Shown here: one piece after another, positions 1,112-4,458 of the stretch | How the letters are laid out: every line of letters begins with the position of its first letter | Numbering within the stretch: position 1 is the stretch's first letter | NCBI GenBank assembly: GCA_022709105.1 | Contig: JAKIXL010000020.1 | Span: 1 to 15,770, forward strand | Length of the DNA stretch: 15,770 nt | Reading direction: 5' to 3' | Origin: Thermoplasmatota archaeon | Lineage (GTDB): Archaea; Thermoplasmatota; Thermoplasmata; Methanomassiliicoccales; Methanomassiliicoccaceae | Position numbers and translations under genes: made by a program | The notes under the pieces: generated by a model | Database searches by the model: none | What the model was told of the DNA's origin: nothing | Seen by the model: only the letters and a program-made list of their open reading frames with translations

Positions 1112-1540
1112 TCACTCCGGAGGCCGGGGAGCCGCGGGAGGCGTCAAAGGCATGAACTTGTACCCATAGTAAATGATCCCTGACGCCCCCTCTTCGCCGA
1201 GCCTCCTGATCACCGCCTGCACCTTCATGCCTATGTTGACCTCCGCCGGATCGCAATCGATCACCTGGCCGGTCACTCGGATGCCCTCATCCATCTGGAT
1301 GATGGCGATGACATATGGCTTCTGCAGCTCGAACTGCGACGGGGCATCATGGACCACCGAGAAGGTTATCACCTCTCCGGTCCCCTGGAGCTTGAACGGC
1401 CCCATCTTCCCAATGCTCTTGCGGTGGCAGACCGGGCACACCGTCCTCGGCGGGAAATAGAGGCGACCGCAGTTGCCGCACTTGGCCCCCGTGAGATTGT
1501 ATCTTGGCTCGTTCTCCCTCCAGAACCTCGCCACGGCCAT
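1112..1540 (-). CDS. DUF35 zinc-ribbon/OB-fold protein, acyl-CoA-binding subunit of the HMG-CoA synthase/thiolase complex
   Basis: A 142-residue protein with the standard DUF35 plan. It has a short N-terminal helix, a rubredoxin-like zinc ribbon with cysteines at C21, C24, C35 and C38 (CGNCG and CPVCH), then a C-terminal OB fold from about residue 45. All four zinc ligands are present. In the methanogen HMG-CoA synthase/acetoacetyl-CoA thiolase complex, the DUF35 protein bridges the two enzymes and helps form a shared CoA-binding site. In bacterial steroid catabolism, DUF35 domains partner thiolase-fold aldolases. The start codon overlaps the thiolase-like stop by one base (TGATG), so the two are translationally coupled and probably made in equal amounts. 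Last gene of the operon. Confidence 0.9.
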   Translation of the reverse strand: MAVARFWRENEPRYNLTGAKCGNCGRLYFPPRTVCPVCHRKSIGKMGPFKLQGTGEVITFSVVHDAPSQFELQKPYVIAIIQMDEGIRVTGQVIDCDPAEVNIGMKVQAVIRRLGEEGASGIIYYGYKFMPLTPPAAPRPPE

Positions 1541-2709
1541 CAGTTCACCCTCCCCAATATGTTGACGACGACCGTCGCCCCGGTCCCTCCGACGTTCTGA
1601 GCGAGCGCCCTCTCCGCCCCGGAGACCTGTCGCTTACCCGCCTCTCCCCTGAGCTGCGTCACCAGCTCCACTACCTGGGCGATGCCGGTCGCCCCCATGG
1701 GATCGCCGCGGGCCTTGAGCCCGCCGGAGGTGTTGACCGCCAGCTTCGCTCCCAGCGAGGTCAGCCCGTCCTGCGTTGCCTTTCCACCGGTCCCTTTGGG
1801 GAAGAAGCCCAGGTCCTCGATGGCCAGGATCTCGGAGATGGTGAAGTTGTAGTGCACCTCGGCGATCTGGACGTCCGATGCGGCGATCCCGGCCTGCTTG
1901 AAGGCCTGCCGCGCCGCGATGGAGGTGGCGTCGAACTGGGTTATGCTCTTGCGATGTGCGAGAGCGAGCGTGTCCGATGCCTGCCCTGAGCCCAGGACCT
2001 TAACCGGCGTATCGGTGTACTTCCTTGCCCTCTCCAGCGGGCAAAGGACCACGGCGGCGGCGCCGTCGGACACCGGAGCGCAGTCGAACATCCCCAGCGG
2101 CTCGGCCACCGGGGCGGCCTTGATCACCGCGTCCAACTTGATCTCCTTCTGGAACTGGGCCTTGGGGTTCAAGGAGCCGTGCTTGTGGTTCTTCACCGCC
2201 ACGGAGGCCAGCTGCTCCCTGGTCGTTCCGTACTTGAACATGTGCCGCCGGGCGATCATGGCGTGCAGCGCCGGGAAGGTGGCGCCGAAGGTCGTCTCCC
2301 ACTGCTGGTCCGCCGCGGTGGCCTGGATCTCTCCCGACAGGACATCGCCGACGTCGGTCATCTTCTCCGCTCCCCCGACCACCACGATGTCGTGCATGCC
2401 GGAGGCCACGGCGATGTAGCCCTGGCGGAACGCCAGTCCCCCGGAGGCGCCTGCCGCCTCCACCCTCGTGGCCGGTATGTGGTCCCTCGCCATTCCCGAG
2501 TAGTCGGCTATGAGCGCTCCGATATGTTCCTGCTCGATGTACTTCCCGGCCGACATGTTCCCGACGTACAGCGCGTCGATCTCCTCGCTGGTCAGGTTCG
2601 CGTCGGCGACCGCCGCCAGGCCCGCCTGGATGCCCAGCTGACGGAAGGACATGTCCCACAGCTCGCCGAACTTGGTGTCGCCGATGCCTATGATGGCTAC
2701 CTCTCTCAT
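1540..2709 (-). CDS. Thiolase-fold protein in the HMG-CoA synthase operon; catalytic residues replaced
   Basis: A 389-residue protein aligning end to end with archaeal SCP-x-type acetoacetyl-CoA thiolases, from the N-terminal AIIGIG strand to the C-terminal NVGGTG loop. The expected role is condensing two acetyl-CoA to acetoacetyl-CoA for HMG-CoA synthase. However, the signature residues differ. The nucleophile motif normally read AACASGG is AAGASGG (G87, codon GGC at 2449-2451). The GHPxGATG motif is GDPMGATG (D336, codon GAT at 1702-1704). The HDxFT motif is HYNFT (H286 kept, Y287, N288). The usual HNVGG is QNVGG (Q371). The rest is intact, with no frameshift or internal stop. Start ATG at 2709 overlaps the HMG-CoA synthase stop (ATGA). 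The same frame is open far upstream, but that stretch lies inside the synthase gene and is not thiolase-like. Classical thiolase activity looks unlikely; a scaffold or a different carbon-carbon chemistry is possible. Confidence 0.9.
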
Positions 2710-3764
2710 TCCGCTCCCCCCTTCATCCTTATCTTGCCTCGGAACTTCGCGTAGGTGGCGTAGTCGAGGAACTTCTTGTGCTCGACCAGGTCCTTCACGG
2801 TCGGCGCGGCGTCCCTCCTCAGTTCGAGGATCTCGTTCGTCACGGTGATGTCGAAGGCGTCCGATCCCGCGCCGGAGCCGTAGGCGACGGCGAAGATGCG
2901 GTCGCCTGGCTTCGCTATGTCCAGAACCGACGCGAGGCCGAGGGGCACCGCGCCGGAGTAGGTGTTCCCTATGAACGGCGTCAGAAGCCCGGCCTCTATC
3001 TGCTTCTCGCTGAAACCCAGCTGCTTGGCGACCCTCACCGGGAACTTGCCGTTGGGCTGGTGGAACACCGCGTGCGCATAGTCGGCTGGCTTCGAGGACA
3101 TCTTCTCCATTAGGCTCTGCGAGGCGGCCATGATATGCTTGAAGTACGCCGGTTCGCCGGTGAACCGCCCTCCATGCGACGGATAGCACTGTCCCTCTCG
3201 CCTCCAGAAGTCCGGGGTGTCGGTGGTGAAGGAGCACGTCCGATCGATGCGGGCCACGATGTTCTTCGAGCCTATGAGGTATGCGGCGCCTCCCGCCGAC
3301 GCCGAGTACTCGAGGGCGTCCCCAGGTGCGCCCTGGGAGGTGTCCGCCCCGATGGCCACGCCGTATTCGATCATCCCCGAGCCTACCAGCCCCATGCAGG
3401 TCTGGATACCGGCTGTCCCGGCCTTGCACGCGAACTCGTAATCAGCTACGGTAAGGTTCGGAGAGGCCCCGATGGCCTCGGCCACGACCGTCCCGGTCGG
3501 CTTCACCGCGTAGGGATGCGATTCCGAACCTACGTATATGGCGCCGATGTCGCAGGGATCGACATCGCAGCGGCGCATCATGTTCCTGGCCGCCTCGATG
3601 GAAATCGTGATGACGTCCTCGTCCGGCGAGGGCACCGACTTGGAAAAGATCAGCAGGTTGCGGCTCATCGCGTCCCCGTCCGTCCCCCATACCCGGCCGA
3701 TCTCCTGCGGCGCTATCCTGTACCGGGGCAGGTAGGCCCCGTAGCTGACTATTCCTACTTCCAT
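2706..3764 (-). CDS. Hydroxymethylglutaryl-CoA synthase (archaeal type)
   Basis: A 352-residue HMG-CoA synthase of the short archaeal/bacterial type. It condenses acetyl-CoA with acetoacetyl-CoA to HMG-CoA, the first committed precursor of mevalonate and archaeal isoprenoid lipids; cytosolic. The catalytic set is complete: E81 in VGSESHP, acyl-accepting C113 in EFACKAGT, and H235 in FHQPNGK. Spacing matches the Glu/Cys/His set of characterised synthases. Other family marks are [16 protein letters not shown] and the C-terminal [10 protein letters not shown]. The start is fixed by a strong Shine-Dalgarno site (AGGAGG, six bases before the ATG) that overlaps the stop of the upstream regulator; the intergenic gap is 10 bases. 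The stop overlaps the thiolase-like start by four bases (ATGA). Everything visible supports an active enzyme. Confidence 0.95.
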
Positions 3765-3774
3765 TAACTTCCTC

Positions 3775-4458
3775 CTAGGCGAGCTTCTTCAACCGTTCGA
3801 CCATGGCCGCGACCGGCATGTCGATCTTAATGAGCGGAATGTTCTCCAGCGAGGCCAGCTTGATGGCCAGCTGATCAACGTGCTCCGGGCGGTGGTAGCC
3901 TACCACGCTCGGCTTGAGAGGGTGGGCGCGGATGGCGATCATGGGGGAGCGCCCGAACTTCACGCCGGTGAAGATGAGTATGCGCTCCGATGACCAGCCG
4001 TAGATCTTGAGGTAATCGAACGAGGAAAGAGACGTTATGGCCTTTATGGAATCGATGACCGTGTAGCCATGTATATGCCTGCCGAGATCGACGCCTTGGT
4101 TCAGCGGCTGGGCGTCGATCATGTCCATCAGCTCCTGGGCCGATATGCTGGTGCGGAACTCGTTGATGCTGATTATGCAGTCATGTTTCTCGCCCAGGTC
4201 GTAGCGCTTCAGCACGTTGGAGCCGGAGGCCTCATCAAGATCGATCAACCCGTCGACCATGCGGCGGATGATGGCTATCCCCGGAGAACGCCTTCGGCCG
4301 GACTCGTAGTCGCTTATGACCGAAGGCGATATCTCAAGATGCTTGGCCAGTTCTTGCTGGGAGATGCCGAACTCCTCGCGCCACTTGCGTATCGTCTTGC
4401 CGGCGTCGATCGATAGAGTGATCTCTCCGGCGATCTTCTCGCGCAGCTGCTCCCTCAT
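3775..4458 (-). CDS. HTH (XRE-like) transcriptional regulator heading the HMG-CoA synthase operon
   Basis: A 227-residue protein. Residues ~21-60 form a Cro/CI-type helix-turn-helix ([20 protein letters not shown] followed by ESGRRRSPG). The remaining ~165 residues are a mixed alpha/beta domain without recognised catalytic motifs; it may sense a ligand. A regulator of this type (COG1709-like, from memory) precedes HMG-CoA synthase in methanogens, so control of isoprenoid precursor synthesis and its own operon is a fair inference. The frame is open to 4746, but ATG 4458 is preferred: the HTH protein begins naturally there, the upstream residues are low-complexity, and a TATA box centred near 4487 predicts transcription starting within a few bases of this ATG. 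The stop codon TAG lies 10 bases before the synthase start. Confidence 0.88.

Follow-up and report, generated by a model that had tools for sequence, protein, structure and literature searches.

The thiolase-fold protein encoded in the HMG-CoA synthase operon of this Methanomassiliicoccaceae archaeon is very probably, as judged from sequence comparison, a pseudoenzyme that derives from an acetoacetyl-CoA thiolase and persists in the HMG-CoA synthase complex as a non-catalytic subunit, while acetoacetyl-CoA would be made elsewhere. Its catalytic residues are lost, selection on it is ongoing, its partners are intact, and another thiolase is present in the genome. The three-gene cassette lies within the 15,770-nucleotide stretch of DNA that was analysed as a whole (the window), and its features are collected in Table 1.

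Table 1. Genes of the HMG-CoA cassette and the adjoining regulator gene, in coordinates of the window.
Feature	Coordinates	Strand	Basis and remarks
HTH (XRE-type) regulator gene	3775..4458	minus	PF01381 over cut-off; directly upstream of cassette
Archaeal HMG-CoA synthase	2706..3764	minus	TIGR00748, 581.5 bits vs cut-off 353.35; catalytic positions read
Thiolase-fold subunit without catalytic Cys87, Cys288 and His336 (G87, N288, D336); pseudoenzyme candidate	1540..2709	minus	
DUF35 protein (zinc ribbon and OB fold), putative third complex subunit	1112..1540	minus	PF01796 and PF12172 over cut-off

The thiolase-fold gene is intact and encodes 389 amino acids; it shares 4 bases with the HMG-CoA synthase gene and 1 base with the DUF35 gene, and the coordinates bear out an earlier note on this DNA. 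The best match of the protein among solved structures is the acetoacetyl-CoA thiolase of the M. thermolithotrophicus complex (6ESQ; E 2.1e-108, residues 1-386), and this alignment, together with a score of 555.8 bits against the NCBIfam model PRK06064 (cut-off 420), establishes full-length homology to the acetoacetyl-CoA thiolase of archaeal HMG-CoA complexes. Against another NCBIfam model, NF053570, it scores 563.4 bits, which is under the cut-off of 600. The HMG-CoA synthase retains its catalytic Glu, Cys, and His, in line with the impression of the earlier note that this partner looks active; the same residues are kept at 77 of 77 loci that cover them in one of the sets read, and no contrary residue was seen in the other set, some loci of which end early.

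The regulator gene upstream would encode 227 amino acids given a start at the ATG at 4458, the listed open reading frame extending to 4746, and no NCBIfam model matches the protein at or over its cut-off. Among 69 related loci with 1 kb or more of upstream sequence each, 64 have a homologue of it directly upstream of the HMG-CoA synthase gene and in the same orientation, in lineages with intact and with inactivated thiolases alike.

The protein carries G87, H286-Y287-N288, G335-D336-P337, and Q371, all as the earlier note had read them, and the matching places of 6ESQ are occupied by Cys, His-Asp-Cys, and Gly-His. Position 288 we take to be that of the Cys of the HDC motif and position 336 that of the His of the GHP motif, with the catalytic roles assumed for them in thiolase biochemistry. 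The nucleophilic Cys, the HDC Cys, and the GHP His expected of a thiolase from an archaeal HMG-CoA complex are therefore all replaced. Among the 120 nearest database proteins listed, position 87 is Gly in 119 and Asp in one; position 288 is Asn in 103, Ser in 16, Thr in one, and Cys in none; and position 336 is Asp in all 120. Since the same losses recur across these relatives, G87, N288, and D336 can be attributed neither to chance nor to a slip of sequencing. Position 87 corresponds to the nucleophilic Cys85 described for the M. thermolithotrophicus complex (PMC6392133).

Two further substitutions that had been counted among the catalytic losses do not belong there. Tyr287 is private to the window copy, as all 120 nearest proteins listed have Asp287, including P0002, which differs from the window protein in three residues; the argument against sequencing error does not extend to it. 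Gln371, shared by 94 of the 120, also occurs in 4 of 39 intact representatives. Both are details, and not catalytic losses.

To see how far the loss extends, we read the catalytic sites in 212 genomes, which yielded 209 distinct sequences. The sample is uneven: it comprises 47 of 61 genomes of the order (those with a readable cassette thiolase), 50 of 80 loci found with patterns from the window's own protein, 23 loci from 37 genomes hand-chosen largely because they contain other thiolases, 19 genomes (L297-L315) selected for showing no type I/II thiolase, and 73 genomes from a draw of the phylum Thermoplasmatota, which alone were taken regardless of their thiolases. Of the 136 genomes drawn for it, 82 from outside the order carried a synthase that scored over the cut-off, and 9 of these were left out by hand (G243, G252, G282, G294, G311, G326, G332, G334, and G346). 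Seven loci of the hand-chosen genomes, with more distant synthases (L290-L296), stand outside the count; in five of them a distant thiolase adjoins the synthase and has Cys at 87.

Cys87 is absent from all 47 cassette thiolases read in the order, and from 146 of the 209 sequences overall (Gly in 81, Asp in 42, Ser in 10, Thr in 10, Glu in 2, and Ala in 1), being kept in 63; in the phylum draw it is lacking in 42 genomes and kept in 31. We refer to the thiolases without Cys87 as dead. The Gly form is found in Methanomassiliicoccus luminyensis and Ca. M. intestinalis. Six Archaeoglobaceae genomes and others that group with them on the tree have Asp87, usually with Ser288 and Ala337, and Thr87 with Ser288 is found in Thermoplasma acidophilum, T. 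volcanium, Thermogymnomonas, Picrophilus, Ferroplasma, and Acidiplasma. Positions 87, 288, and 336 are all intact in Methanocorpusculum, represented by M. parvum (L076), and in the 19 selected genomes, which belong to its phylum. The losses look stepwise, because some thiolases keep Cys87 and have lost the second Cys (L275, L279, L281, L284, L351, L362, and L379), and others have lost Cys87 alone (G338, L350, G059, and L166). Thus the loss seen earlier in a single genome is real, and it is wider than was noted, spanning the order and recurring in other lineages.

The recurrence was mapped on a quick, unrooted tree of 143 cassette thiolases, thinned from 208 after the truncated row G234 had been dropped and built without the trait columns. 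The state of Cys87 requires six changes on this tree, at least four of which are forced by well-supported branches. Dead rows make up most of a large Thermoplasmatota clade (78 dead rows and one intact), form an Archaeoglobi clade (11) and a Thermoplasma-type clade (6), and also occur singly, as G328 and G338. The long branch of G244 is placed next to the Thermoplasma-type clade with little certainty. The direction is taken as loss and not gain, since the intact state is that of working thiolases. The one intact row within the large dead clade, G250 (L370), has a fully intact cassette thiolase and sits with G259 at 93% support, and its placement possibly reflects reacquisition, misplacement, or extra losses.

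What has happened to the remainder of the protein was assessed by comparing 39 fully intact with 97 dead representatives at the 114 sites that are at least 97% conserved in the intact set. Median retention of these sites in the dead set is 0.965, with 74 of them kept at 0.9 or more and 105 at no less than 0.5. Retention is lowest at C87 (0%) and C288 (4%), followed by 211 (9%), where Ser is changed to Ala. Several neighbouring sites, among them 338, 129, 145, and 149, are loosened as well, and 336 is kept at 38%. In seven close relatives (21 pairs each), dN/dS is 0.03-0.17 for the thiolase vs 0.04-0.15 for the HMG-CoA synthase. The ratio of thiolase to synthase distance has a median of 1.09 in 646 intact pairs vs 1.41 in 3524 dead pairs, with 1.50 within the order and 1.06 in 13 Archaeoglobi-like rows. 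Constraint on the dead thiolases is strong, and in most dead clades mildly relaxed. Loss of catalytic residues and continuing purifying selection, two of the marks expected of a pseudoenzyme, are both found here.

The same data bear on ordinary decay, under which a redundant thiolase would be on its way out after another had taken over, and would be kept only by its position in the operon. The presence of another thiolase and the raised rate relative to the synthase, which fits some relaxation, are what decay would lead one to expect. However, the dN/dS values do not exceed 0.17 in any of the 21 pairs, the 47 sequences read in the order still align over 384-389 residues, and the dead form persists over whole clades of the tree, so that decay is a very unlikely account.

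Another possibility is that the protein has acquired a new catalytic activity, such as an aldol or retro-aldol reaction, acyl transfer, or a weak non-covalent Claisen condensation, through the retained His286 and new polar residues, for example Asp336. Indeed, His286 is kept in 91 of the 97 dead representatives and Asp287 in 96, Asp336 is invariant among the nearest relatives, and aldolases with a DUF35 partner are described as combining Gly at the nucleophile position with a new function (PMC12329534). Yet the dead clades have no conserved replacement acid or base in common: position 336 varies among them between H, D, Q, Y, N, F, and R, and position 288 between N, S, D, A, V, G, T, and C. 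Even among the 28 representatives of the order, position 336 is D in 15, Y in 7, H in 4, F in 1, and N in 1, and even His286 gives way to Asn in 5 and to Asp in 1 of the 97. A residue kept in at least 90% of the 97 dead representatives and differing from the intact consensus was sought, and only Ala211 was found. We therefore regard new chemistry as unlikely. The earlier note had offered it as one of two readings, and the variation at 87, 288, and 336 across the dead clades speaks against it there, while its support from Asp336 holds among the nearest relatives. The same note had named C210 as a possible substitute nucleophile; this residue is about equally common in intact (92%) and dead (89%) thiolases, and the suggestion was rejected.

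The substitution at 211 deserves separate consideration. Ser211, which presumably matches the CoA-contacting Ser247 of bacterial thiolase, is replaced by Ala in 87 of the 97 dead representatives, in none of the 39 intact ones, and in one of the 7 partly changed rows; by clade, Ala211 is found in 11 of 11 Archaeoglobi, 27 of 28 representatives of the order, G328, G338, and one of 6 Thermoplasma-type rows. The change accompanies the loss of Cys87 in several separate lineages and mostly not in the Thermoplasma-type clade; Ala211 is also present in one row that keeps Cys87, G134. The prevalence of Ala211 hints at an altered CoA contact, and this counts against an allosteric or hand-off role, in which the empty pocket would bind acetoacetyl-CoA or CoA and pass it on or regulate the synthase, so that some channelling from an outside thiolase would survive. 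Such a role would fit the conservation, in the dead thiolases, of most sites conserved in intact ones, and the description of the intact complex as having a shared CoA site (PMC12329534). Weighing the two, we consider it quite unlikely.

If the cassette thiolase is catalytically dead, acetoacetyl-CoA has to come from elsewhere. When the cassette protein was searched against the window's genome, a draft that is 80% complete, no further copy of it was found; a Pfam search, on the other hand, revealed a second thiolase, of the kind that the earlier note had proposed to look for, at a separate locus (G000:C111:6395-7618, minus strand, equal to L171:1396-2619, minus strand), with no DUF35 match seen in the adjacent open reading frames. 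It shares the thiolase superfamily with the cassette protein and differs from it in subfamily and in having CGSG, NEAF, GHP, and CLGGG, that is, all four catalytic residues (Cys, Asn, His, and Cys), and it matches TIGR01930 with 449.7 bits (cut-off 240.55). The four residues are present in all 120 listed proteins of its family, its own record included. Sixty of the 61 genomes of the order have a separate match of at least 290 bits to a canonical thiolase, the residues having been read in 45 of these 60. Over all groups, with some genomes represented twice, 124 of 129 canonical thiolase loci have all four residues, and the other 5 are truncated, none being contrary.

The co-occurrence was followed by counting a match to PF00108 with E below 1e-40, a limit set in this analysis, as another type I/II thiolase. 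Such a thiolase is present in 41 of the 42 Cys-less genomes of the phylum draw (its residues were read in 33 of them) vs 11 of 31 Cys-keeping ones (Fisher p 3e-9, ignoring kinship), and over all 209 sequences in 135 of 146 dead vs 16 of 63 Cys-keeping ones. When kinship is taken into account, only four supported pairs differ in the loss, of which on average 2.1 go the same way, 0.0 the opposite way, and 1.9 show no difference, one going the opposite way in a few pairings; among the 12 supported pairs in which one member has another thiolase and the other has none, 1.3 agree in direction and 10.7 show no difference in loss. So few supported pairs do not decide whether, with kinship allowed for, the loss is linked to the presence of another thiolase. 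Having another thiolase does not force the loss, since 16 of the 63 Cys-keeping sequences come from genomes with one. G171 has a canonical thiolase and an intact cassette together, and the phylum draw contains nine more intact cassettes with another thiolase (G291, G246, G308, G240, G288, G343, G324, G250, and G305).

Eleven dead thiolases come from genomes without a type I/II thiolase, and seven of these are of the Archaeoglobi type, for which all six genomes checked (all but G166) hold an intact SCP2-type thiolase elsewhere; G063 has one as well. For the metagenome-assembled genomes G076, G091, and G108, no intact alternative thiolase was found, the second weak Pfam match in each of G091 and G108 being unread. 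G279, the sole dead genome of the phylum draw without another thiolase, is identical to G091 in contig coordinates and in scores. In the draft of G076 (L249), the nucleophilic Cys is likewise missing from two adjacent thiolase-like genes of the SCP2 type.

Taken as a pseudoenzyme, the thiolase-like subunit most likely holds the synthase and the DUF35 protein together and supplies its own side of a shared CoA-binding site, so that the HMG-CoA synthase would still work. The thiolase reaction is not expected of it, because the nucleophilic Cys, the HDC Cys, and the GHP His are replaced; a separate thiolase would make acetoacetyl-CoA, which would reach the complex from solution, and for this reason the first step would no longer be channelled. 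The assembly of the complex, the role in the CoA site, and the route of supply are what we infer by analogy with the M. thermolithotrophicus complex, described as having a CoA-binding interface built by all three proteins and an acetoacetyl chain that moves between active sites at this shared interface (PMC6392133, PMC12329534). If the synthase needs the thiolase chain for its CoA site, then the chemistry can go and the thiolase itself cannot. The scaffold reading of the earlier note gains support from the second, intact thiolase, from the kept synthase residues, and from the finding that under continued purifying selection it is the cysteines that are most lost. We lean, by a modest degree, towards a more general account, in which the synthase needs the thiolase chain and lineages of Thermoplasmatota more than once, and Archaeoglobi separately, made an obligatory dead subunit of it once the chemistry had passed to another thiolase, giving up channelling.

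None of the three cassette genes was found in six genomes of genus g6 of the order (G024, G033, G038, G042, G056, and G058). We considered this joint absence as proof of mutual dependence and dropped it: five of these genomes, all but G042, do contain HMG-CoA reductase, none of the 61 genomes of the order yields a bacterial-type synthase that exceeds the TIGR01835 cut-off, and in G016 of the same genus a contig end falls inside the thiolase, so that the absence is possibly a real loss and possibly an assembly gap. Families f24 and f32 of the phylum draw have no archaeal HMG-CoA synthase match over the cut-off; they may use another synthase, since the listed weak matches are mostly in reading frames of 470-600 codons.

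Three known systems are comparable with the cassette. The M. thermolithotrophicus complex (PDB 6ESQ/6ET9) resembles it in full-length homology, in the three kinds of subunits, and in the kept catalytic residues of the synthase, and differs in the three catalytic residues of the thiolase. The Friedel-Crafts acylase PhlABC of Pseudomonas protegens has the same design of a thiolase-fold, a synthase-fold, and a DUF35-type protein, one fold lacking key residues and being thought structural; PhlA is described as without the key Cys and Glu, yet active enzyme is obtained only from the whole PhlABC set (PMC6392133). There it is the synthase-like PhlA that is without key residues and the thiolase-like PhlC that is active, whereas in the window cassette, which belongs to the mevalonate pathway, the roles are reversed. 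Finally, the Ltp2/ChsH2 and Sal/Shy aldolases combine a thiolase fold with a DUF35 partner, and Sal is described with Gly at the nucleophile position, as in G87 (PMC12329534). However, Ltp2 and Sal are reported there to use the Tyr of YDHF or YDCY, in place of which the window protein has His286 (the 120 nearest relatives listed have His in 110 and Asn in 10), and the operon partner of the window protein is HMG-CoA synthase. The absence of this Tyr was a further reason for setting aside aldolase or acyl-transfer chemistry. Models of lipid-transfer proteins are not reached either, the protein scoring 240.4 bits against PRK08256 (cut-off 436) and 184.4 against PRK07855 (cut-off 469).

Among the titles and abstract beginnings of open-licence articles in PubMed Central, we found no report of an inactive thiolase in an archaeal HMG-CoA complex, and the excerpts of two papers that treat archaeal mevalonate genes (PMC3533463, PMC11052028) make no mention of one. 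Where database names are given to the dead subunits, they are mostly thiolase or acetyl-CoA acetyltransferase, so that the first step would be credited to the wrong gene in reconstructions of the pathway. Both the dead form (Thermoplasma acidophilum, Methanomassiliicoccus luminyensis) and the intact form (Methanocorpusculum parvum) occur in cultured organisms, which makes the proposal directly testable. The membrane lipids of archaea depend on the mevalonate pathway, into which the three-protein complex is described as channelling acetoacetyl-CoA (PMC12329534). If it is true that large archaeal groups keep this complex after its first enzyme has died, channelling would not be the sole reason for the complex to exist.
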